NCBI GenBank assembly: GCA_013399305.1
Contig: VXAI01000015.1
Coordinates: 8,162,813-8,226,812, forward strand
Length of the DNA: 64,000 nucleotides
Origin: Rostratula benghalensis
Taxonomy: Eukaryota; Chordata; Aves; Charadriiformes; Rostratulidae
Reading direction: 5' to 3'
Shown here: positions 7,545 to 30,800 of the stretch, piece after piece
How positions within the stretch are numbered: the first letter of the stretch is position 1
How the letters are laid out: each line of letters opens with the position of its first letter
Position numbers and translations under genes: made by a program
The notes under the pieces: model-generated
The model's database searches: none
Seen by the model: only the letters and a program-made list of their open reading frames with translations
What the model was told of the DNA's origin: nothing

Positions 7545-8239
7545 CGCTTCTAAAGCCGCACGAGGAGAGCGTCAGGTAATTCAGACACAGCCCGGCCTAA
7601 AATCAAACCCGAATGCGTGGCAGCAAAACCGAAAAACCAGCCACAGCCCAGTAGATTCAAAATGTCACTCTTTCACTTGCCTAACCTCCTTGGTCTTGCC
7701 TCTGCTAATCCACAGGCACATCTGCGTGAATAGGCTGAACAGACCCGCTCAAACAAATACACACAGGACTAAAAGCAACACAACACTAATGCATATCACT
7801 TAGCTTTAACAATAAAACTGCATCAATCAGTTGTACTTTTGTTTCCAGTCAGCTTTCAGTCCCCTCTTTTTTTTTTTTTCTTTTAAAAAAAGAAAACACA
7901 ACCAACAAAAACCTGTCTCCTGTGCAGCCACGGCATCACATTGTCTAGACCAGGGGGCTACAGCTGAACCTTTCTCTGGCTGTATGTTGGATGGCTTCCC
8001 ATGTATCAGGAGCAGAGAAGCACGGATAAATACAAACCTTTAAATTCTGGCCTTTGACATATTGCTATTAAAACGATGTGGCTTTTCTGTATAGAAAAAC
8101 AAAGCCCAGGAGCATCTCACGCAACCCAGGACTCAACGCAGCCCCTGAACAGACTCGGAAGGGCCATTAATAGCGTGACATGGACCCGGTCAACACAAGT
8201 GTGAAGAAAAAATAGTAATAAAAATAAACCCTCCGGTCA

Positions 8240-9480
8240 TCTTTTGTCCTCTGCAACGTTACGGGGTGGCAGCGGGGACGCGGCGCTCCGGGGGCGACAC
8301 GCACATGCCGCTGCCATCCAGCTGCTGCTGCATCGCCATGAAAATAAAAGGGAAAAAGGAAAAAAAAAAAAAAAAAGAAGAAGGGAAAAAAAAACCCTAA
8401 GCAACCTGCCGAACAAAAGGAAAAACCCGGCTTTCTCCTCACGGAAGGCGGCCGGGATTGGCAGCCGGCATCAGGTGTGCGGGGCTGCCCGAGCCGCGGC
8501 GGGAGAGCCCGGCCCCGCCTGGGGCATGCCCTGCCGGCAACCTGCGAGCCCCGGCCGGATGCCGGAACCCGCGGCGACCCCGAGGCCGCTCCGCTACCTA
8601 ATAAGGCGGAAAGCGGGGGAGAAACCCCGGGCTGAGCTCGGCACCCAACCGCTGGGGCGGGGAGGGCGCTTCCCCCCGCAGGCCCGGCCACTGACAGCGG
8701 GCCGCCGCCTCAGGAAGGGCTCGGTGGCAGCGGCCCGGCCCCGCGCAGGAAGAGCCCACCCAGCCGACCAGACCCCCCGCCCGCCTTGCCCAGCCCAGCC
8801 CAGCCCTTGCCCAGCGCCCGCCGCCGCCCTCCCGCGGGCACCACCGCCACCGCCTCCCCGCGGCGAGCGGGCCGCCCGCCCTGCTAAGCTGCCACCCGGT
8901 CCCAGCGCCGCCCCGCTCCCCCCGGTTCTCCTCCGCACCGCGATCCCGAGCCGCCTCCCCGCGTCCAGCTCCTCAGCCCGGCGGAGCCTCTCCTCCTCCG
9001 CCGCCGCCGCCACCGCCTCCGCCCGCCCGCCTGACTGACTGACTGACCACCGCGCGGCGGGGGCGGGCGGCGCCGGCCTCAGGCCACGCCCCCTCTGGCC
9101 ACGCCCCCCTCACCGCAGGCCCCTCCCGCCCCGCTCGGCCGGGAGGGCGGGGGGCGGAGGGGTGATTGGCGGCTCGATTAGCCAATGGTGACACGGCGCT
9201 CTGCGCCCCGCCTCGTCGCGCGCTGGCCGGCTTCCTGCCGCCCCTCTGCGCCGCCGCTCCGTGTGGGCCGCGGTGGCCGCCGCGCCTCGGGGGCGGCGGG
9301 GTGAGACCCTCCCCGAGGGAGACTGGAATCTCTGCCCTTCGTGGCCTTGGCGGGGCCGCGACAGCCCGGTTCCCCTCAGCATTCAGCCCCTTGCCGGATC
9401 GTCACCCTCCGCCGCCTCCCTCACAAGCCCAGCCGCCGGTCTGGCCTTCTCCCTCACGGGCCCAGCCGCGGTTCCCTGAG
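8240..9480. promoter_or_regulatory. CpG island promoter, probably CORO1C exon 1 region
   Basis: About 1.2 kb of very CpG-rich DNA with GCC/GCG runs. In its centre are paired CCAAT boxes (ATTGG 9165-9169, CCAAT 9182-9186), GC boxes (9145-9150, 9152-9157) and two CCACGCCCC KLF-type sites near 9084-9107. It probably holds the non-coding first exon of a minus-strand gene. CORO1C is inferred from synteny only; no coronin coding exon is in the window. Confidence 0.6.
9145..9186. promoter_or_regulatory. Core promoter: two GC boxes and two opposed CCAAT boxes
   Basis: GGGCGG at 9145 and 9152, ATTGG at 9165 and CCAAT at 9182 fall within 42 bases. The CCAAT boxes face in opposite directions, so NF-Y could drive transcription either way. 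Confidence 0.5.
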
Positions 9481-12400
9481 GGCACAGCACCTTCCTCCTC
9501 CGCCTGAGCTACCCGGGGTGTCAGCAAAGGTGGGGACGCACTGGAAAAAGAAGAAGGGTGGGCTTGGGGCTCTAACGGCACCAGACCTGCAAATTGCAAA
9601 TGAGTAGGGCGCAGCCCTGCGGATGCAGCTCCCCGTGAGGGCTGGGTCAAGCAGCGCTTGGGTAGAGCCTGCCAGCAGCCAAAAGCAAGGCTGAAGAGAA
9701 CCAACAGCTCTGCAAGAAAAAACAGCCGTGTGGCCGCATTTTGTCACGCTGACTTGCTGGGGCCGGCCAGCAGGGCAGGGACAACAGGAGAGTTTAACCC
9801 CCTGCTAAAAATCACACTTCAGTGAGAAGCACGGGACGGTAACTTGAAGCCGAATATAACCCTCATTGCACTAAAAGTAAAGGGGAGGTTTTGTCTGCTG
9901 TTTTAAGTGAAAGAGACTAACAGTTATTAATACACCACACAATAAACAGTAAGAAGGTGAGTACCTGTGCAGCAAATACCTCCAGGCACACAGAGTAACA
10001 CCACTCTCAAAGACTGCGTGTTTCTGTTCCTCCAGGGAACTTGAAGAGCGGATGAATGATGCTAGATCAGTGCCCACGTTGCACAGTGTTTACCATACAT
10101 GGCCAAAACCAAAAGCTTAAGTCTAACTTCCTTATATGTTTTGGCCAATATTTGTGAACTCGTTTGCATGCGGTTAGGTGCTTAAGGGGCCTAATTTTTC
10201 AGGGGAGAAAAAAAAAACAACCAACCCTGTAGCTCCCCTTGTAATCCTTCAGAATGTGGAGAAATATGTGTGTCGTGATGAGCTCAGCTGAGAACCCTGC
10301 TCTTCTCCCATGAAACCACAACAGGACTGTGAACTGCCCCCTGTTAAGCGGCAGGTGGGTGTCAAAACATGCAGACAACCTCACAGAGATACATTTGTCA
10401 TGGTCTCCCTGGTCTGACTGATAACAGCTGATGGCACCATCAGATGCCGCAGTAGCTACAAACTAAACAAGCAAAGGTTATCCAACATTTGTTAAACTTT
10501 GATACCAGTTTAACCACTGATTCAGCGAGCTCCCTTGCGTGCTGAGCAACACCTTGATAAAAAAACTAAATAATGATACGCCCAAAGATTAGAGTTGCAA
10601 ACCTGCATCCCTGCCCTGCGCTGCCAGCAGCACCAATTACCATGAAATTCATACTTTCCTTCTGAAAGCCAGCCCAGTGCACTTACTCTCCACCCTCCTC
10701 CCTCGAACAATCGCTTTAAAGCTAAAAAAGAAGAAACCAAAAGCAGTTTGGCAGCCCGGGAGCGGAGCTGCAGGTAATCTGGAGTTTAGTGGGTTTAGGT
10801 TGTGATTCATATTTTCCACGTCGGTACGTGACGTGCTGAAGGTCACACCATGAGTCAGTGACACAGCTGAGTGCCGTGGCTGCCAGTCCCACGGCCACTA
10901 ATTTCTTAGGAGCCTCACAGGGTTAAAACTTTATAAAAAACTTAATTCAAACCAACATGTAAAACGGTACTTAAAAATGTCGTGTGTAGGTATAGCTCCT
11001 TGCAGCCCAAAGCAGTGGGCAAGCTCGAGGTGATGCTTCAGGTGATGCTGGGCTGAAAAACAGCAGAGGCAGCAGTACCCAGCGCTACCTGACAGCCTTG
11101 GAAAAGAGACTGAGGAAGGTTTTGGGCGTCCAGCTAAAAAGAGAGGGGTGCACAGAGGACACAAAGCGGAATTTGTCCCGAGAATGGCCACTGAGAGCTT
11201 GTCCTCTCAATGACTGCCACCTGAAGGGCCGGTTCCCATCGTCACTGCAGGGCTGGACACTGCTGCCACACAACTTGCTCAGCACATCCTTGGGAGAGTC
11301 ACTAAGGGATGGACTCAGAAGGAAACAATACCTGTCAAACTTTCTCTAGTGCTTCCTTACAAACGCCTGGATGGAAATACTCCAAAGATCACTCAGGTCC
11401 TGGCCTGGATTAATGAGCCATTTAGAAGGCAAGAGCTCACCGTCCAAGGGGATGAAGGGACGACACAGATTTCGGGCTGAAACCATCAAAGAGAGGAGGA
11501 ACGGCTCTGTGGTCCCGCTGTAAACAGTAATCTTCATCACTCCAGCTGAATAAAATCATTCTAACAAACAGCACTTAAACTGCAGCCAGAGTGATGGCTG
11601 CGGAACAACTTGTCAAAATATGTCACAAATTCTCATGTTTGGAAAGGGAAATATCCTATTATCTTGCAGCCGCGGGGAACCACCAACAAAGTTTGTCCTG
11701 CTTTATCACTACCAACGTGCCTGATTGTTAAACTTTGCAGAAAAGATGCAGAATTTATTCGAGAACACACTCCACTGCTTTCATCCATCCCACCTATGTT
11801 ACCCTCCGCCACCTCGGCGCGCGATGGACTGCAAACGGTCTCTCTTCCCGGCCTTTACACGGGCACAGCCCCGTGTCTGCAGGCTCCACCTCTGAAACTT
11901 GTGTCAGATGCTAAATTTACCTGCCCTGCAAAGAGGCCCCGATTCCTCCCCTGCCCCAAATCACGCTGGTTTCTTCCCACGACGATCTTGACGTGCCTTG
12001 TAAGTAAGGTGTTTGGTATATCCCCCCAGCCCTCGCCGCCAGTGCGGTGTTATTAGGTAGAAAAGGTAAAAATAAATAACTAAGTATATACATAAACACA
12101 CCTGTGGCACCTCTTTCTAACAGAAATTCTGGTGGCTTGGGCCTTCAGCTGATGTTACGTGATTTGGCTTGGAGTCTCTGGATGATCTTAGCCCGGAGGG
12201 CAACCCCAGTCCTTCAGAACCTCAACTAAAGCCGCTTCAGGGAAGAATTTGCCTCAAACATTTCGATTTCCTCAAACCCTCATCGTGAAATATATCCTGA
12301 CTGGAGGAAAAGGGAGGGTTTGGAGAGATGAGCAACTGAAAGCCCTGTTATTTCGCAGCTTCATTTCTAAAGTCACACAAAATATGCCAGACACAACAGT

Positions 12401-15400
12401 TTGTGTTTCGGACCTCGGGTTTGCAGATATCCCGAGTCAGACAACTTTTGAAGGGCATTTGTGTCCACTATTTATCTATTTATTTCTGGAAGCCTTTTGA
12501 TTTATTATTACTACATTATTATTAACCATTATGTTGAAATAACTTCACAGAAAGCACTATCTTCTCCCACCTGAAAGCTGTACGTTTTTATGCTGTTTCA
12601 CCCACGGCTCTCACGATTTTGGTACCCAGGGCCAGATTGAGCAGCACCGAGAAGAGCTGCTCCCGTTGAAATCAGGGGATGTGATCTTACATTTCATTTA
12701 GCATCAACTGGAATGCAGTGAGTAGGCTGTGCAGGGAAATTTGAAGTGGTTGCAGTGGGGAAAAAAAACCCCACCCAAACCATTTTCCGTGCGTGGAATG
12801 GCATTAGATTTATTCTTTCTGCCTTGTTTTCTCAAAGTCTGCTGGGCACATACAGGATGGCGAGGGTAGCTCTATGAAACTGCTTACAAGCCTGGGTTTT
12901 AAGGGACGTTTCAACGCTCATCAAAACGTTGAGCAGCTGCCAAGATGCAATTGTAGGAACAGCCACCACTTGATTACAGCTCATCAATTCTGTCTCTTGG
13001 AGGGGATTACGTGTTCCGCGCCCTGCGCTGATCTGTCCTTCCCCAGACCCAGCAAAGCGTTTGTCTGGAGAGACAGAGTGAGCAAAACCCACTCAGTCTG
13101 GCCTTATTCAATCCTTGGCCAGAAAGGGGAGCTGTAGAATTATGGAATGAAGATAAGGAGAGCAATATGTTCAATAGGATTTTTTTTTTTTTTTTTTAAT
13201 TTTTTTTTTCCCAAATGACAGCCAGGAAGGGAGCGTGGGGGTAAGGAGGAAAAAGGAATATGTGAATTAAAGCCGAGGGTTAGGAGGCAGCACCCTTTGC
13301 TTTTATTCCCATCTCTGCCCCAACTTCCTGGGTGGCATCAAACGGGTCCTGGGGCTGTTTCCTGACCCTGTAAAGTTTGGTTTCAGAGGGCAACCCCCCT
13401 CCCCAAAGGGTAATGAAAACCCACTGGGGTGAGCGAGCGCTTGCACCGACGTGGTGTGTGTGCAGCTTGGCCTGATGGAAAGGCTGGAGATGGAGAAGTA
13501 ATAATAAGTGAGCGTTGGGTCCGGATGGGCTTTAATAATTTATGCTATTGCTATTAATGATTTAAAATACGCTTCATAAAGCACATCTATTCCTGCAGAC
13601 ACACACTCTCCTGCATGTTATTTGCAGAAATACGGATGTCACTCACACCCCTCCTGGCTCCTCTGTAGGAAAGGCACAGAAATACTTGCTGCCCACGCTT
13701 TTTAGAATTAAAGGAAATCTCCAAATTCACTTTGAGCCGGTCTATTTCCTCACCTATTTTTCTCACCCATCATTGTACAGGATTGGGAAATGTATTTTTC
13801 TTCCTTTTTCCCCATTTTTGCTATTAACGGGAGGTGGTCTCAACACCTCATTAAAATGTTGGGACGCCAAATTAAAACGAAGCAATTAGTTGCAACAGAT
13901 GGGATTTTCTTTGTTGCTCTCTCCACTACACCAGCTGATTAACTAGGGGAGAGAGAGAGAGAGAGAGAGAGAGAGGAGGAAGCAGAACACAAAAAATAAA
14001 ATAATGAAAAAAAGCAAGCTGTATTTTATTTACAATATGAATATCCCGGGATTGATGCTTCCTATCATGCTGAACAGCAGGAAAATAAATAAATCAGCCA
14101 GGCAGCAGGTAGTGAGCAGGGGCTTTGAGCAGTGAGATGTGAGGTGAGGTTTGGTGCTGGGACTGCTGTAGTTCTCCGTGTTACACTTAGCACATATCCT
14201 AGTCTGGTCCTCAGCATTCAACCAGTTTTGAATCCTTTTGCCATCTTGTTCTGTTTCTCTCCCTGCTGTCTAGGATCAAGTTGGACCAAAGGTGCTGGAA
14301 AAATCAGAGGTATAAGAAAGGAATCATATAAATGTAAGTGAAGTTTGTTTTCAGCATGAAATCTGGGAAGATACAGGTTTAGAAGCAGATTTAAAAAAAC
14401 TGAAATAGACTATTTCATGGATAGAGCAAAATGAGAAGCTCTTCCTACTCTTCCTTCTTGCAACGTTTTCCCAGTTCAGCACTGGAATAGATGGTCTTGA
14501 CCCTCCCTCCCTATTTATCGTGAAGAACAAGTGGGTAAACATCTGTCAGGAGTGATTTAGCTGTGGCTGGTATGGCCTTAGGGACGGAGCATGATTTCTC
14601 CCAGTCCCCTCTCACCCCCCCCTTCTTCCATCAGATCACCTCCTGCATCCTCCTGCTCCTCCTGCTCCCCTGAAATCATCCCTCCCTCTGATCCAGCTGA
14701 GGGAATCAGCTGTACCCTTTCCTCAGCCACATCTCCCACTTCCAGGAGGAGCCGAGACCCTATTTCTTTACGTGGTGAGACTGATAACGTCTCCTCAGCT
14801 GCTTCCTGAGGGGGGGATAGGAGCTATTTTTCATCACTGCAGGCTTTTTGGTGTCGCTGACACACACAGACAGACACACAATCTCTGTGGCAACGTTCAC
14901 GCTCCGGCTTGACTTTGTGACTTCTGTGAACGAGAGCAATCAGCAGCACAAGGTACCGAGCCCCGTGGGACAATCACACCTATGTTTTGAGTAAACATGC
15001 CGTTCAGTTCAAAGCTAGCATAGATTTCCTGTGCCTCAAAAGATTTATTTTGCCCTTATAAGGAAATGCACAATTGCAGATTGTCAATAAAACAGAAGAT
15101 GTAAGTTAACCAGCCTGGCTCTGGTACGTCCTCGCAGGAGCCCAACTCCCAAACGCTCATTTCTAACCTCTCCCTGTTTCTGCAAAACCGCTGCTTTACC
15201 AGAAAAATCTCAACAAAGTTCATTTATCCACAGTTTTCCAGCAAAAGACTTGGTGAAAGTTGATGTCATCCTCCTGCAAAGCTAAGCCACGGCGCAGGAG
15301 AAAAAGAACCTAAGGGGGGGGCGCGAATGCCTCCTTTTTATGCCACAGCTCAAATAAAATTACATTGGCCCACCCAATCCCTAGAGAGACAGAGGGAAAT

Positions 15401-15805
15401 AATCCCACGTGACGGCGGGAGAAAGCATCATATGGGCACTTCTGCACCGTGTCTACTCATGAAAAGCAGTGTAGGAGCATATAGAAGTGCAGGGGTACTG
15501 GATATAAGACTTTTTGTGCGCAGGAGAGACTTAAAAAGCAAACCTCTTTCTCACGAAACAGTTTCACTGGGAGAAGTACCCTCGCCAAGCGAACAGACGA
15601 CGCGAATCAACACCTGATTTTTCATCCTGACTCGTTAGGACCCCGGACGCGTCTCCCCGGTGCATCCCCTCTCCTGCTCGGCGATGACAAGGCAGGTAAT
15701 TTCTCAAAAGCCTGGCACCCAACCTCCCCTCGGCACCCAGCCCTGGGTGGCAGCGCGCTCCGGGTCCCCCCTGGTCCCCTGCCAGGCAGAGCCCTCACTC
15801 CTCAC
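9481..15805. other. Non-coding stretch between the CpG island and the large exon
   Basis: No convincing gene on either strand. There are T-rich tracts (13181-13210), a GA microsatellite and otherwise unremarkable intronic or intergenic sequence. Exons of the large-exon transcript could be hidden here but I could not identify any. Confidence 0.45.
13947..13976. repeat. (GA)n microsatellite
   Basis: A run of about 15 GA dinucleotides. Confidence 0.95.
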
Positions 15806-17390
15806 CTTTTCTGGCAACGCTGGGCGGTGGCGTCGCTGCCTTCCCCTCCGCCGCCTTGGGCTTTTCAAAGGTTTTCTTGGCGTCGGCAACTTTAAGCACA
15901 TTCTCATCCTCCTGACTCTTCCTCCCCTTCCGCTCCGGCTCCTCTGAGCCCCCTCCTCCTGTAGTCCTGCCTCCAGTGAGCTGCTCCGTGCAGGCAGCTG
16001 CCCACTGCTCCTTGGCAGGCTTGGCTGCATCGCTGAGGGGCTCCAGCAGCGCCTCGGTCATCGCCACCGTCTTGCTCATGCTCAAAGCCAGGCTCTCCTT
16101 GCTGTGGGACCTGACAGGAGGGGCCGGTGGAGTTTTTTTCTGGCTGTATGAATCGAGTATCCCTACATCTGCTTCACCCCCGAGCTGTTCCCTGGTCTCA
16201 AGGAGCTGGCTGCTGCTCTGTCTCGGAAGCTTTTCAATGCTTTTAGCCACCGAGGCATAACTTGCAGCCGCAGAGACCATTCTCTCCAGGCTTTTTGCTA
16301 CCTGCTTGTCTGGCTCAGCCTTCCTGGCCAGATCCTCCTCGCCGGTCTGCCCGTTCTGGCAAAGGTCCGGGGTGCTGTCAGGCTGGGGGGCGAAGCTCAC
16401 CGCCTGCCTGAAGCTCTCAGCTGCTTTGCTGCTTTCTCTGGGGATGTAGGGAAGAGATGCTGCCTCCTGTTTGCTTTGCAAAAGGTAATCCATGAGCATG
16501 GCGTTTCGCTCGAAGCTGTCCGACCTGATGGGGACACTCGGCTTGTTTCTCTCCAAGGGAGAGTTCAGGGTCAGTTTATTCATTTGCCTGTTCTCTGCAC
16601 TGCTTTCGGAGTCCGAACGGCTTATCTGCCTCCTCAGGACTCCTTGGAAAGCATTGAGCCTGTTTAGGCTAGGGCTTGCCACCTTCCCGTCCCCTGGGTA
16701 GCCCTCCTGAACCACAGGTACCTTGTGCTCTGTCGTTTCCCATTCCTCCTCGGGTTCTGCTTCTGCCTCTTCCATCAGGCGCCGGTACTCGCTCTCCTCC
16801 AGCCTGTAAACCACCGGCTTCACCGTCCTGCCCCTGCCCGCTCGCCCGTGCCCAAACTCCATCTCGTACACCTTCGGAGGGGCTTCTCCCTCCTCCCCTC
16901 TCCTGCACCCTTTGGACACGGGGTGCTCTTCCCAGCAGGGCTCCCCTTCCAGCCCCCACGGCCCCCTCTGCCCGCTGCTCCTCATCTGGCACCTCTTGGC
17001 AGGGGCTTGAGTGTCGCTCCCCGGGTCGGGAATGTCCCCGCTCTCCAGCCCGTGCCCCAGGCCCTCCTGGCCGAGCTGCAGCGGAGTATAATCCTCGCAC
17101 CTCCCCGCAGAGGCTCCCCGGGAAGTCACGCAGTCTCTCCCCCCCTCCTGACTTGTGTCATCCTGTAAATATCCACAGCACTGCCAGGTGGAGGCTTCCA
17201 TGGCGGGGAGCTCAGCCACTGTAATTCCTGGTCCAAACGCTTTGGAACTGGCCAGCCAAGATTTCTTCCCACCTTGGGTCTCGGCAAGGCTTTCAGCACC
17301 GCCTTCTCCTTCCTCCGCTACTGGGAGAGACGGAGGCAGCTTGGAAGCCTCCGTGCCTGGGTCATGTGAATCGGCATTTTTTAGCCTCAT
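15806..17390 (-). CDS. Large unrecognised coding exon upstream of the CORO1C-type promoter (partial gene)
   Basis: A minus-strand frame open for over 580 codons ends in the donor AAAG|GTGAGG at 15806/15805; the frame otherwise stops four codons later (GTGAGGAGTGA). I chose the ATG at 17390 (GCCATGAGG, good Kozak), giving at least 528 residues; an ATG at 17552 or an internal exon entering through TTTTTTCCAG at 17528 are alternatives. The product is Ser/Glu/Pro-rich and probably disordered: an acidic helix (RLEESEYRRLMEEAEAEPEE), a basic Ser block (LRRQISRSDSESSAENRQ), IRSDSFERNAMLMDYLLQSK, LPYIPRESS, and a Pro-rich TPPAPPVRSHSK. I recognise no domain and do not assign a function. The next exons must lie to the left on the minus strand; from mammalian gene order as I recall it (CORO1C beside the SSH1 3' end, same strand) it may be an alternative 5' exon of CORO1C giving a long N-terminal extension. 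Confidence 0.6.
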
Positions 17391-17606
17391 GGCCAGCAGA
17401 GATGAAAATGCACGTTGGCCTGATGGGGACCATCCTCTGCGGCCGGGCAGGAGGCTCCCTCCCAGCACAGCAGCTGTCGAAGCTGACGCTACGCCGGTCC
17501 CTACCCAAACATATCCCACCTGAACAACTGGAAAAAACACCCACCCCACCACCCCCCCAGCTTCTAATTTCCTGGTTCACAGCACTTCACAGGCAGGACT
17601 TGCTAC

Positions 17607-18045
17607 CCCAGCTGCATCTTTCTTCAGGGGCTCTCCTCTTTTCCCCAACCTCCCATGGCAATAACTCCCCACGGTCCCGTGCAGCCACCCTCCCTGGCTC
17701 CCCTGCGATCTGGTCGCTTCCAGAGTGATTTACTGCCAGGTCACCCGCTGCGGCTCCTCTGGGCAGGGTCACCTCCGTCACCTCCTCCGTGGGTTTCAAG
17801 GAGAGCTTGGAAACCCCCATCCCTGCCCCTGGCTCTCTTCCCTGCCCCCCCCCCTGCCCTGCGCCCGGCGGAGACACAGCCTCTCCCCGCAGCGCTCCAG
17901 CCTTGGAAGCGGCGCCCAGCCTTGGTCTCCACGTCCCAGTGCTTCGGGGAGAGAAGCCTCCGGCACCCAGCAGGCGGGGAAGAGAGGGAATCAACTGGGA
18001 TGATCTGCGGGAATCAGTTACCGCTAAAAGAATTTGCTGTGACAT
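17607..18045 (-). CDS. Possible upstream coding exon for the 15.8-17.5 kb gene
   Basis: This is a second open minus-strand frame, with a Gly/Arg-rich start and a more protein-like KLSLKPTEEVTEVTLP segment, ending shortly before the large exon. A weak donor GG|GTAGCA at 17607/17606 (phase 1) could join the acceptor at 17528 (phase 1) across a 79-nt intron and extend the large frame. The ATG at 18045 has a poor Kozak context. It could equally be chance openness in GC-rich DNA. Confidence 0.2.
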
Positions 18046-20800
18046 TCAAAAAAACCTCCCCGGGACAAACACAGAAGCCCCACCAGCAGCTTCGGAAACA
18101 AGTTTCCCTCAGGAAACTCCAAAACGTAACTTAGGAAAAAATCCCCATTAATGCTCTGGGTGTTTCTCTAAACAACCCTCCGAGCAGAACGGTCCTCCCT
18201 TTGGATAATCCTCCTGCCAAGCGGGGCTCCTGTAAAACTCTCGGGAAGGAGGGGGAGCAGGAGAAGCCGCAGGGCTCTAATCCCTTTACACGCAGCCGGG
18301 ATGCCTGGCATTGCAGCTCCCACCCCGGCAGCTCTTCCCCAACGCTTTGCCTTTTATGGTGCAGGAGGTGCCGGCTGCCCGAGCCCGATCCGGGGAGGCT
18401 TCCCGAGGTGGGACACGGGAAAGCACCTAAATGGTCCCTGAAGTCACACGGGCACAACCTGCGCAGGCCCCTCCGGGGCTGAGCCGGGTGCTGTTTCCCT
18501 CTGGGGGCTGAGTTACCCCAGTGTCAGCCCCAAAGAGTTTGCCAACAGCCCCCGGCCCCAGGCTGAAGGCGTCTCACAGATGCTCTGTGGGGCTGGAAAA
18601 TCCTCATCCAGAGCCCCCGGGGACCCTGGCAGCTCTCTGAGTGCGGCTGACGCACTCGGGCTGCGAGGGTGACACCTGGACTACAGCCTGTCACGATGCC
18701 ACCACCTCATCCCCGGCTGCAGGAGCCGGCTCTGGAGGCCACTGCCGGCCACCACCATGGGGAAGGAGGGAGGGATGACAGTTATCCCAGCCCTTATCAG
18801 CCCGGGGAGCCAGCCAGGGATGCTTTTTTTTTTTTTTTTTTTTTATCAATGCACATTGCAGAGCTGCTCTGCAGCGAGACAAAACACCATTTGTTACCAC
18901 TGGAAGTTTTAAATCCCTGCTGAGGCTGCCCAAAACAAACACAACCGCTTCCCAGCCGGGCCGGGGCGGGCTCCGGAGCTGTGTCGGGAGCAGAGGATGC
19001 TCCCTGCTGACACCGGTGGCGGGGATCTCACAGCACCGAGCCCACCCGGTGGCGAAAACAAGGCAGGAAGATTTGCTGGCTTTAGCGGGAGTGACAAATT
19101 TTAAAGGCAGGTCACCTCTCGCTGGGATAAACTTGAGACTCGGGCACGCTTGACGTTGGCACAAAGACCTGATCAATAAAGAGTTTGGGGCTCTTCCTCT
19201 TCAGCCAAGCCCTTCGGTTCCCCCATGCCACAGCCAGAAACATTCTAGGGCTCTCAAAACCCATCACGACTTGGATGTATAACCTTGATTATTTATTTTT
19301 TTTTTTTTTCTGGCTTGCCCTGGGTGGGGATGGCAGAGCCCAGGGCTGGTGTGGAGGCTGCGGAGCTGGGTTCTCCTGCGAGCTGCTTGTTGAAGGCTCA
19401 GGAAAGTCCCACACGGGAGCAACGCGGCTTCTGCATCCTCTGCATAAAAGGAAATGGCAGCGACATCGCCTCTGCCCCATCCTTCAACCGGGAGATGAAG
19501 AGACTTTTAGGGAATACGCAACGCCCAGGGCGAGGGCTGTGGCTGGAGCAAACCCCACGGGCTCCAGCATCACCCGGCTCCCCGGGCTGAGGCGGCAGAG
19601 ACGCTGCTCTCAGTACTGAGCTACACCCGTTTGCGTTGGTGCGAGCGCACGGGGAGGACCTCCCACCACAGGTTCTCCAAGCAGCAGCCCCTTGGCAATG
19701 GCTGGATGGAGTGGGACCCCCACTGCCACCTCCTGCAGCCCCGCATCCCCCTCCTCCTCCATCTGTCGCAGCAACCAGCTCGTCTCACATCAGCACTGCC
19801 AGCTCTTGGCTTCTGCCTAGAAAAATATTGACTCTTCTGCCTCTCTAGAGGCCAGCGTGGTTGTCCAGCCACCACCCAGCGTCAACAGACATGGAGACAT
19901 CATCCCCAAACCAGCCTCCCTCACCTGCCAAACCTTCTCTTTTCCCCCAGTAACATCATGACAACATCTGCCCAGCACCCCTGTGGGCACCTGCCCCCAC
20001 CCAGCATGAAACTGGGAAGCGCTGGCAGGAAACCATCCTCCCTGCCCCATCAGGGGCAAAGTAAGGGGTCGAGAAGGTCCTTGAGAAAATCTGCTCCTTC
20101 CTGATTGCTGCTCAGAACTGCTTGTGGGCTCCTCCACCGGGCCACCAAGGCAAGGACCTCGTGTCTTCCCACCGCTCTGGGTCCCAACTTGAGGGGCACC
20201 CAGCGCCAGGCTGCCCCCACCATCATCTGCTCCAGGCTTGGGCGTCTCCTTTCACCAGCCAGGCTATAAATAAACCCTTCGATGGCCGCCGCAGAGAACT
20301 CGTGTTGTTGCTCCAGATGTTGCCTGGCTTTGCCATAGCAACGTCACAACAGGATGTAACATTCGGCCATAACAAGAACCGCTCGGCAAAGAACCGACTT
20401 TCAATCATAAACAAGAACAAAAAAAAAAATAAAAAAAAGAAAAAAGACACAAAAACTCACCAGCGGCCCCAGGGCACCCTCTGGCCATTTCCCAGTCCCG
20501 TCTCCTGGTGCCTCTCCAACGTGCCACCTCTTAGATGCAACCCTTGAGATGCAAAGAGCTGCGGTGGGGAGATCTCCGTCTCTGGGAAGCCGAGATGAGG
20601 AGGAAGCATCTTCTTGTCAATCGGCCAACAGCAAGCATCTGACCCCAAAACGGCACTGGCTTAAGGGAGAGGCTCTGACCTCAACAGCACACCAGGGCGA
20701 GAAAGGGGGTGTCTCCCCAAACCAGAGCTCTGGAGAGTTGGAGCCTCTGGGGCTCCCAGCTCAGCGCTGGAGAGAGTTAACCCCAGGGTGTAAGAGCTGA

Positions 20801-26530: not shown

Positions 26531-27808
26531 TCAACTTTTGCCAATCCAAAGAGTGTTCTTCAAGTTCCCGAGCGCGGGCTTCGCTGCCAGTTTGGAGGCC
26601 AGGTCTGCACTCCTCAGCGCGGGCTGGGGCTCGCGGAGCGCGGAAGACTCGCTTGGAACGGCCTCCTTAGAGCCCGTTAGAGTCGAGGCATCCACGTCGC
26701 TCACTAAGTCCTCGGAGGACAAGTTAAGGCACCCCAGCTTGGCCAGAGAATTGGACCTTTTCAGGCGAGAAGACACGGTCAACCCGGCCAGCCTGAGCCG
26801 GGTCTCGATTTCCTGAGTGCGTTGTTTCACCAGGCCGGGTTTGCCCCGCACGCTGTGGATGCTGTCGCTGCTGGAGCTGCGCGTCAGGTTGGAGCTGCGG
26901 GAGGAGGAAGGGGTGTAGCAGATGGTCTTCAGAAAGTCCTTGGTGAAGCTGCTGGTGTGCTCCAACCGACACACAAGAGGCGCGGAGGTTTTCTGAGAGA
27001 TCCCCTCCAAGACGCATTTCGCCTCTGACTTCTCCAGGTGGTTTTCTTCTCCGGGGACCAGCGGCGCGGGGCCCAGAAGAGGTGCCAGGTTGCGGTGTGA
27101 AAGCAGCTCCGCGCTTTCCTCCACGATGCTGGAGTCGACCCTGCCCAGGGGGCTCTCTCTGAGCAGCGAGGAGGCCTCCGAGGGCAGGCTCTTCAACCGC
27201 TCCAGCTCTTTGGTGTGTTTCCTGACCAAGCCCGCTTTCTGCAGCTGAATGAGAGACTCCTGATGCTGCATCAAGTAACTGTTGGCGCTCGGCTTTTCCA
27301 AGTCTTTGCTGAACAAGTACTTCAGATCCTTGGTGGGTTTCCCATCTTTTCTGGCCAGAGACTCCTCTTTTACCAGTTCTGCATTCAGGAGGCTCTTGTC
27401 ACAGTGCGAGTTCCTCCTGGGCAGCAGAGTTTTGACCGGGGTTTTTGGTGCCTCTCTCCCTTTCTCCAAAAGGTGTTGATCAAGAGATTTGCAAGTGCCA
27501 GCCTCCAAAGCACCGGTCCCTGCCGACAGAGGAAGGGGAGCCTCCACGTTTTTAGTCCTGATTCCCTCCTCTGAGTGTGCCTTGCTGGGCAGGTGGTCCA
27601 CCAGGTTGGAATTGATGTGGGAGAGGAGGGCCGGCTGCGTGCAGATGGTGGTGGTGCTGCTGCTGCTGCGACGCGCGGTGCCGGGATTCAGCTTCTCACA
27701 CTGCTCCCCGAAGGAGTCGGGAGACAAACCAGCTGAGGAATACATGCAGTCAGCACAGGACTGGTAGGAAGGCTTGACTTTGCTGAGGATCCCAAACACG
27801 GCATCGTG
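26531..27808 (-). CDS. SSH1: SSH1 coding exon 15 (tail and stop)
   Basis: This 1,278-nt terminal coding exon starts [20 protein letters not shown], has [12 protein letters not shown] Ser-rich stretches and a conserved block [20 protein letters not shown], and ends [11 protein letters not shown]. It carries the RSSSSDS and RSNSLAK 14-3-3-type phosphosites used to inhibit and relocalise SSH1, and the adjacent helix [16 protein letters not shown] long Ser run comes from a short trinucleotide repeat. The acceptor is CTCTTGCAG. Confidence 0.97.
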   Translation of the reverse strand, partial: HDAVFGILSKVKPSYQSCADCMYSSAGLSPDSFGEQCEKLNPGTARRSSSSTTTICTQPALLSHINSNLVDHLPSKAHSEEGIRTKNVEAPLPLSAGTGALEAGTCKSLDQHLLEKGREAPKTPVKTLLPRRNSHCDKSLLNAELVKEESLARKDGKPTKDLKYLFSKDLEKPSANSYLMQHQESLIQLQKAGLVRKHTKELERLKSLPSEASSLLRESPLGRVDSSIVEESAELLSHRNLAPLLGPAPLVPGEENHLEKSEAKCVLEGISQKTSAPLVCRLEHTSSFTKDFLKTICYTPSSSRSSNLTRSSSSDSIHSVRGKPGLVKQRTQEIETRLRLAGLTVSSRLKRSNSLAKLGCLNLSSEDLVSDVDASTLTGSKEAVPSESSALREPQPALRSADLASKLAAKPALGNLKNTLWIGKS

Positions 27809-30800
27809 CTGCAAGAGAAGAAAAGAGGGACAGGTAAACGCCCGCAGAACGGGACATCAGCCATCAGCAGAGCCAGGCACAGAGACCACGGCCAAGCAGA
27901 TTTGAAACAAAGCCCATTTCCACTTCTCTTAAGGCCCTGTGGCAGGAACAAGAGCCAGGCACTTTCTCAGCAGACAGTGTCTTGGATGGAAGAGTACCTA
28001 CCCTTTCAAACGATGGTCATGCAAGCAAGTTGCCCAAAGCGGTTTACAGGGCACTCGCGTGCGTGCGCTCTCTCTCTCTGGCATCTAAATCCATAGCTTG
28101 GGCCAAGCAAAGCCATGTTGAGAAGCACTTCGACAAGGAAGAAGCTCATCATGGAATGAAAGGCTTTATCCAAGTCAAATGAAACTGTGCTATGAAGATG
28201 AGAAGAGCAGTTTCACTTGCAGTAGAGTCAGCCATGCTAATCACCTAACACAGCAACTCCATACGCACCTCAAAATCCTCTGGGCAACTCCTTTTGCTGT
28301 TGTTGTTGTTCAAGTTCTCTCTGTTAAGCCTGCTCTCCTCCTTGTGCATGGACAAACGCCTCTTCCACTTCTCCACTGGATTCTCCTCCCTGACACCGTC
28401 CTCCCCTGGCTCCCCGGGGCCCAGCACTACCCTCCCCTTCTGGGGGCTGAAGTCCAGTTTCTTCTTCACCTCCTTCTCGGTGAAACCGCTCGGCTCCGCC
28501 GGCGGCTCCGCTGCCTCCAGGGCTTTCGCCGGCTCCGCCAGCCTCCCCTCCGGAGGTTGTCCCCCCGGCGAGGCAGCGCGCTTCCCGAGCCCGTCCCGCT
28601 CCGGCTGCTCCACGTGGAAAAAGCCCTCCCTCTCACCGGGGATCTTGTTCTCCAGCAGCACGTCCGAGAGGCGATGGAAGCAGTAATTGAAGCCCGACAC
28701 CTCCGCGCCGGCGCGGTTGTCCAGGTAGGCCGACTGTGAAGGCGTGTCCAGGTCGGCCAGGCGGTTCTCCAGGTCGATGTCCAAGCTCTCCAGTAAGAAG
28801 TCGCCCGACCCCGTGGTGCCGTCTGTGTTCTGGGGTAGGTTGCTCTCAGCCTGCTGCTTCCACAGCTTATTGTGGCGTTGTTTGCTGGGGGGAAAGGACA
28901 AAGACAGGGGTGACCACCCTTCAACTCTAGGATGCCCAGTTCCAGGGGCGTTTGTCCCTCTCTATAACCTGGAGCTGAAAGGCTGAAGGGTGGGCCCAGC
29001 CTGGCTGTTCCACTTGGGCAAAACCATCTCTAGCATCAGGATTTTATCCCTCCTGCCTGTCCTCCCTGGAGTCTCTTGGCCCAGCAGGCTCTCAGACCCA
29101 CGATGAGAAGAGTCCCTCAGGGCAGAGGGGCACAGAGCCCTCTGTCAGAGCCAAACAGCCTGAACCAACATCTCTGCACATCCCACAGCATGGTTCCTGC
29201 TCAACCAGAGTGAAAGATTTCCCTCCTCTTCCCCCAGCAGAGCGTGCAGAAACCCTTATTAGATACAACAGCCCTTGCAATGACAAAGACTTGTGACTGG
29301 CATGGTCACCCAGAACTGTGAGTGACTTGCCTCCAACACTGCTCAGCTCAGTTCTGCCTCATAAAACAAGAACAATGTTTTGCTGAAGAGAACTTGGCCG
29401 CTGAGAGACAGGAACATGCTTCCCGAATGCAGAGAAACCCTCACGGAATCAACCCAGAGCAGATCTCCCTAGAAGATGGCTTATTTCCATCCAGGGAGGC
29501 CTAGCACAGGAAAGGTTTGGAGAAACAGAATTAGCCCAGCCCTTCTGAAGACCCTTCAGCCTTCATCACCTGCACACTCTGCCAGCGTCTTTGAGCAAGG
29601 CATTGGCAGAAGAAGAAGAACCTATTGTTGGGTTGGGTTTTTTTTTTTTTCTTTTTTTTTTCCCCCCCCATTCCTCCTGTGGCCTTACCTGGCATCTAAA
29701 ATGCCTTCGTATTCCAAAAGCTGCCTCATGAAGCCTGCGTTCGGCCTCGCGATGCTGCGCTTCTGTTTCACGTAATTGTAAGCCTTTTCCAGGGACCAGC
29801 CAAACTCCTTCATGGCGTACGCGATAACCGTGGATGCCGAGCGGCTCACACCCATCTTGCAGTGCACCAGGCACTTGGAGTGATTCTTCCTGCAGGAGGA
29901 CAAAGAGGAAAACACACCTCGTCGGTCTGGATGATGGATAACGGTTTTAAACTGAAAAAGGGGAGATAAGGTGAGATTCTCAGGAAGAATTTCTTTGGGG
30001 TGAGGGTGGTGAGAGCCTGACCCAGGTTGCCCGGAGAAGCTGTGGCTGCCTCATCCCTGGAGGGGTTCAAGGCCAGGTTGGAGGGGGCTTGGAGCAACCT
30101 GGGCTGGTGGGAGGTGTCCCTGGCCCAGGGCAGGGGGTGGCACTGGGTGGGCTTTAAGGTCCCTTCCCACCCAAACCATTCTATGATTCTATGGTGAAGG
30201 TATCGTTACCATTTCACACGCTGGAGGGACTGCACTTTGTCCTCCTGACCACCCCAACACCACAGCTCAGGAGGTGACAAACTCTTTGGATTAAAGGGGG
30301 GCATGAGAAGAATCTCTCTCCAGAAAGGCTGGGAGTTGGAAAAGGGCAGCCTCAATCACGGTGCCATTTCAGAGACCACCATGAAGCCTCCCTCCTGCCT
30401 GCCCGAGCCCTTGGATACTGGGACAGGTGGGAACAACCCGAGCCCAGCAGAGTTTGACGGGCTCTTGTCACCGTCCCCTGTCCGCAGAGACAGCTGGAAC
30501 CAATCCAGCACCAACACGTGCTGGAGCATTTCCAGAGCTTCTTGAGAAGAGGAACTATCCTCGTTTCCTTTTGGAAGCAAAACAAAATACTACTACTACT
30601 GAAAATTTAAAAAAAAAATAATAAAATAAAAAAAAAAATCACAGGCCAGAAACAGGTTCATGTCAGTACAGGAAGAGACAAGGTACAGGGAAGCTCCAGG
30701 GACACAGACAACTCCTGGAAAAAGCCCTGTGGCCTCCTTCCGTGGTGGTGTGGGTTGAGGGAGGCCCCAGCTCCACGCTGGATGGGACACGTAGGGCACA

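Follow-up and report, generated by a model that had tools for sequence, protein, structure and literature searches.

We analysed a window of 64,000 nucleotides (nt) from contig VXAI01000015.1 of Rostratula benghalensis, and this report concerns a long open reading frame (ORF) on its minus strand and the gene to which it belongs, CORO1C, encoding coronin-1C. The frame is real and protein-coding and, judging from homologous sequences, serves as first coding exon in a long CORO1C form of birds, turtles, alligator and a lizard; its product is called the extension here. It is highly probable (about 0.88) that this is a sauropsid upstream alternative first coding exon whose donor, after base 15806, has two fates, leading either to a fusion with coronin or to a coronin-free protein.

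Results

A stop-free frame of 593 codons runs from 17576 to 15798 on the minus strand by our ORF count of the 64-kb window. An earlier note on this DNA, made from the sequence alone, had put its length at 585 codons, and thus the open frame stood but the count had to be corrected. When the local 3 kb (15401-18400) was shuffled 300 times with dinucleotides preserved, the mean length of the longest frame was 216 codons and the maximum 395, and none of the 300 attained 593. The frame length is beyond chance. The window frame has no Pfam domain, as might be expected of a frame open by chance or of a gene in decay, but none of the shuffles reached its length, and such an origin is contradicted by islands of sequence kept in birds, turtles, alligator and lizard; we give it next to no credence. 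The guanine-plus-cytosine (GC) content by codon position is 0.61/0.50/0.71 over 17201-15807, which resembles the 0.54/0.47/0.74 of the probable Slingshot last exon of the same window.

The coding part of the exon and the open stretch before it are as follows.

15806..17201, minus strand: first coding exon of long CORO1C, coding part, 465 codons plus 1 nt, phase 1 (tblastn of 43/43 homologues, alignment, splice contexts)
17202..17576, minus strand: upstream in-frame open stretch, including an unsupported acceptor, TTTTTTCCAG, before 17527 (Calidris frame change, codon-position GC, 23/43 starts at 17201)

The protein search returned at least 43 homologues at E<=1e-3, these being among the 7994 candidates scored, the named sources being birds, turtles and one lizard, and all 43 map by tblastn to the minus-strand frame of the window. 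Homologues from birds, turtles, alligator and a lizard pass from the extension directly into coronin, and this bears out the suggestion of the earlier note that CORO1C has here an alternative 5' exon of very large size. The start of coronin-1C, MRRVVRQSK, occurs in 25 of the 50 proteins P0001-P0050 (window query included). All but one of the 25, a quail model (P0042), have the extension joined directly to it with the junction K-[D/E]-TM. The window exon ends, at AAAAG/GTGAGG, in the phase that matches this junction. The longest fusion is that of a sea turtle (P0032, 964 amino acids (aa)), and that of Balearica (P0009) has 942 aa. Curated records carry the prefix NP_, and the chicken RefSeq protein NP_001264797.1 (P0044, 580 aa), which starts late, has coronin preceded by roughly 104 residues from the end of the extension. 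The coronin part of P0009 has no match within the window at E<=1e-3, and the coronin-coding exons should therefore lie to the left of the window. When bird DNA matching the exon was sought, four pattern matches were obtained in viral contigs and 40 in genome contigs, none of which was confirmed.

The Alligator protein P0050 is recorded as coronin-1B isoform A. It carries a coronin-1C-type extension and a coronin part like that of the coronin-1C homologues, and is, by these resemblances, probably a misnamed coronin-1C.

Both ends of the exon can be placed. The ATG at 17201 stands in the context GCCATGG, and 23 of the 43 homologues, turtles included, start exactly there. The donor after base 15806 is in phase 1; the strong donor that the earlier note had read as AAAG/GTGAGG at the end of the frame, just before its stop, was found at this place. 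More than 520 coding codons had been claimed, but the homologues confine coding to 17201-15806. Eight contig ORFs (P0007, P0010, P0012, P0018, P0020, P0023, P0030 and P0035) read K-G-E at the exon end, as is expected from an unspliced donor (AAA GGT GAG), which suggests that the donor is conserved.

The stretch 17202-17576 is probably non-coding, either 5' untranslated region or promoter-proximal sequence. Its GC by codon position is 0.66/0.58/0.50, the pattern of the coding part being absent, and in the Calidris model P0002 about 21 of 64 upstream residues match, by eye, another frame of the window. On both grounds, the stretch seems to be open by accident rather than held in frame. These observations also bear on the alternative that the exon is internal, 1722 nt long and entered at the 17528 acceptor, so that it could be included or skipped without a frame change. 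The acceptor-like sequence (TTTTTTCCAG, ending at 17528) is present, the arithmetic is correct (17527-15806 is 1722 nt, divisible by 3), and seven of the 43 homologues start upstream of 17201. However, use of this acceptor is unsupported, since 23 of the 43 homologues set the start at the ATG at 17201, the upstream residues of Calidris are in another frame, and the acceptor is preceded by a G-rich stretch with only a six-T run. A symmetric, skippable exon is thus quite improbable, and we prefer a first coding exon with translation from 17201.

A Met at window position 16280 (codon 308) is where three models start, with MVSA: P0037 (Leptosomus), P0047 (Aegotheles) and P0048 (the turtle Pangshura). 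Chicken P0044 starts still later, and the exon may contain an internal promoter.

The second fate of the donor involves two further features.

14218..14294, minus strand: alternative last exon, coding for the tail APLVQLDPRQQGEKQNKMAKGFKTG and a TGA stop, with the acceptor CTGATTTTTCCAG; 11/43 homologues map their tail there
14025..14030, minus strand: AATAAA poly(A) signal, 188 nt beyond the tail stop and followed by a T-rich stretch

Eleven of the 43 homologues, all of them from birds, are without the coronin domain and carry a short tail, which is 25 aa long except in the parrot Lathamus (22 aa). By tblastn, the tail maps to 14295-14221 in nine of them and to the slightly wider 14322-14224 in P0019 and P0022. 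The tail exon has its first base at 14294 (AAAG/CA), in phase with the 15806 donor, so that the first codon of the tail is completed by the last base of the donor exon, and its TGA stands at 14220-14218. The tail is identical to the window at 16-24 of 25 positions in the ten homologues that have it at full length. Given the acceptor, the in-phase stop and the poly(A) signal in the window, together with the tail homologues, the 15806 donor therefore appears to feed either a coronin fusion or a coronin-free protein in birds. The latter product partly echoes another idea of the earlier note, that of a gene lost in mammals. In databases, the tail-form homologues stand as coronin-1C isoform X1/X2 or as uncharacterized proteins.

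The same data could be read as a separate two-exon gene (17201-15806 and 14294-14218) between SSH1 and CORO1C, with the coronin fusion arising from occasional read-through splicing. Indeed, the window contains everything needed for the coronin-free form, including a stop and an AATAAA of its own; P0003, P0005, P0008, P0014, P0015, P0019, P0022 and P0031 are annotated as uncharacterized proteins of 437-492 aa; and the tail is well conserved, as in Apteryx, where 23 of 25 tail residues are identical but only 70% of the extension. Nevertheless, all nine named turtle, alligator and lizard homologues found are coronin fusions without the tail (the coronin part of the lizard protein is incomplete), few parts of the extension are as well conserved as the island adjoining the coronin junction, and 24 of the 25 fusions share one protein-level junction. 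A separate gene is therefore unlikely, and we retain the reading of one CORO1C exon with two fates.

Conservation within the extension was examined in an alignment of 21 chosen homologues and the window (22 rows). Mean identity to the window over 465 residues was 0.74 for 14 birds, 0.44 for five turtles and 0.30 for one lizard, with gaps counted as mismatches, the partial Alligator row excluded and the partial duck and pigeon rows included. Among the aligned named homologues, those of Larus and Calidris are nearest (both 88%). The extension is shorter, with internal gaps, in Tympanuchus, a grouse (363 residues), and in Lathamus (415 residues), and the duck and pigeon models start late. Three segments stand out.

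16527..16661, minus strand: most conserved inner island, codons 181-225, around RQISRSDSESS...NKLTLNSP
15852..15896, minus strand: juxta-coronin island LKVADAKKTFEKPKA, codons 436-450, with the motif LKVADAKKTFEK, near the coronin junction
16110..16130, minus strand: Pro-rich class II SH3-type ligand PPAPPVR, codons 358-364, pattern PxxPxR/K (from the alignment)

The three 15-codon blocks of codons 181-225 have identities of 0.60-0.79 in turtles and 0.40-0.93 in the lizard, and a further island, at codons 121-135, ends in VYRLE. The pattern [LV][KR]VA[DE].KK.FE is found in all 22 aligned rows, window included. At the aligned position, all 14 birds and the window have the putative SH3 ligand PPAPPVR, whereas none of the five turtles, nor the lizard, nor the partial alligator row has it there.

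No Pfam family matched the window exon at E<=10, and one weak match (E=9.2) was obtained in one of five other proteins. A sequence search of the PDB gave no convincing relative of the extension; the sole profile match (E=0.77), to a lysophosphatidic acid (LPA) receptor fusion chain, was judged to be due to chance. Two other candidates were rejected: an origin by duplication from the neighbouring Slingshot tail, for which the best score was 16.9 bits (E=1.6), and a likeness to paralemmin or AKAP2/MISP, considered on account of VYRLEE, for which the Pfam search of the window exon gave nothing. By the charge-hydropathy boundary formula, the extension falls on the disordered side, near the dividing line (0.400 vs 0.422). 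The extension is probably an unstructured scaffold with short binding sites, disorder being suggested by its composition and by the lack of known domains.

The remaining features of the neighbourhood are the following.

29688..30050, minus strand: Slingshot DSPc exon (PF00782, E=6e-25; closest solved chain, Slingshot homolog 2)
26531..27856, minus strand: probable last coding exon of the upstream Slingshot gene (SSH), an open frame assigned by its place, with no Pfam match of its own
8001..9500, no strand: CpG island, GC up to 0.79, CpG observed/expected 0.83-0.92

Judging from the DSPc match, the gene to the right of the exon is a Slingshot phosphatase, presumably SSH1 rather than SSH2 or SSH3 in view of the neighbourhood, and the long CORO1C exon lies downstream of it on the same strand. 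The Slingshot stop is approximately 9.3 kb upstream of the ATG of the exon. The CpG island, which lies downstream of the long exon on the gene strand, is by its composition a probable canonical CORO1C promoter.

Several points weigh against the reading that we favour. Isoform use rests on gene models made by others, of which many are automatic and may have been copied from one another; among them are the duck model P0028, tagged LOW QUALITY PROTEIN, and the quail model P0042, whose junction contains an additional stretch. CORO1C exon 2 is outside the window, and its joining in the painted-snipe's own transcript is inferred from the homologues and the phase-1 donor. As the homologues were compared as proteins, frame breaks in a single species could be hidden. 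Homologue starts lie 6 to 63 codons upstream of 17201 in the seven cases mentioned and further downstream in 13 of 43, so the true translation start may vary between homologues. The tail was seen in birds only and was absent from all nine proteins of turtles, alligator and lizard. AlphaFold2 gave a mean pLDDT (predicted local distance difference test score) of 41 for the extension and 33.6 for the fused protein, modelled from a similarly shallow alignment, in which the propeller was not confidently recovered; neither model is evidence of disorder, because the same method failed even on the coronin propeller. Finally, the mechanism proposed below for the extension is hypothetical.

Discussion

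Both splice sites are present in the window, and both kinds of product among the homologues. How such an exon might work can be proposed tentatively, at somewhat less than even odds. A single promoter upstream of CORO1C would yield either a giant-fronted coronin-1C or, via the bird last exon, the front part alone, and the choice between splicing and early polyadenylation would set whether partners of the extension are tethered to coronin-controlled actin or kept apart from it. The transcript would begin upstream of 17201, from a promoter that we infer, as we do the tissue in which it is used, and would be translated from the ATG at 17201. When 15806 is spliced to CORO1C exon 2, to the left of the window, the frame would continue through the usual start Met into the whole of coronin, giving a protein of approximately 940 aa and making the normally free N-terminal coronin motif MRRVVRQSKFRHVFG internal. 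In coronin-1B, the basic N-terminal motif carries a regulatory phosphorylation site, according to PMC3203266. When 15806 is instead spliced to 14294, with cleavage after the AATAAA at 14030, a coronin-free protein of approximately 490 aa would result.

Through the extension, short binding sites would become available to kinases, adaptors or SH3 proteins, the candidates being a Ser-rich, basic, phosphorylation-like block, the bird-specific SH3-type ligand and the juxta-coronin segment. Most likely, it would bring partners to actin controlled by coronin-1C. The coronin-free form, having the same sites without the actin and Arp2/3 contacts of coronin, might compete for these partners.

Coronin-1C has mostly been studied in mammalian cells. 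Should the coronin of birds and reptiles have a front part equal in length to coronin, and should birds produce this part by itself as well, the actin regulator of a large part of the amniotes would have a layer that no paper among the literature matches listed describes, and models equating chicken and mammalian coronin-1C would need checking. If the exon does act in both ways, actin regulation would have a lineage-specific layer that mammals lack.

As to the reach of the extension, no named mammal was among the homologues listed at E<=1e-3. The juxta-coronin part also served as query, that from chicken at E<=1 and that from alligator at E<=10; the named sources of the matches were birds, turtles and alligator, with no named mammal, amphibian or fish. 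Absence outside sauropsids is likely rather than proven, because the protein search requires shared five-residue words and a length of 0.55-1.75 times that of the query.

Humans have N-terminally elongated coronin-1C isoforms in muscle, which we take to be CRN2i2 and CRN2i3; the elongation is short, about 50 aa. The earlier note had linked the present exon to such a muscle isoform. Section 10 of PMC3203266 attributes the human elongations to an additional upstream exon and describes them as seemingly confined to modern primates, and they therefore look like an independent event. That the gene and the kind of change are the same might favour a single exon, lengthened in sauropsids, but the apparent restriction to modern primates described in that section, and the two juxta-coronin queries that matched no named mammal, argue against it. 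Such identity is very improbable, and the extension exon is probably not that of the human muscle isoform; the proposed link is thus not upheld.

The exon is already in public gene models, as coronin-1C isoforms or as uncharacterized loci, and no description of a long sauropsid coronin-1C was among the literature matches listed. NCBI coronin-1C records of birds and turtles (isoform X1 or isoform 1; P0009 of Balearica, P0033 of Chrysemys, P0044 of chicken) contain the orthologous exon fused to coronin-1C, and their names reveal nothing of the extension. Avian records named uncharacterized protein or coronin-1C isoform X2 (P0003, P0005, P0006, P0008) have the same exon plus the 25-aa tail exon; they are annotated as separate genes or as coronin, even though no coronin domain is listed. 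Several "uncharacterized" avian proteins thus look like products of the CORO1C first exon, and their annotation could be corrected. Compared with the canonical class 1 short coronins, the fused product holds the whole of coronin-1C, but 465 codons come before it. Like the elongated human forms described in the cited section of PMC3203266, the long sauropsid form gains a longer N-terminus through an additional upstream exon; unlike the human forms, seemingly confined to modern primates in that account, the sauropsid exon was found in birds, turtles, alligator and a lizard.
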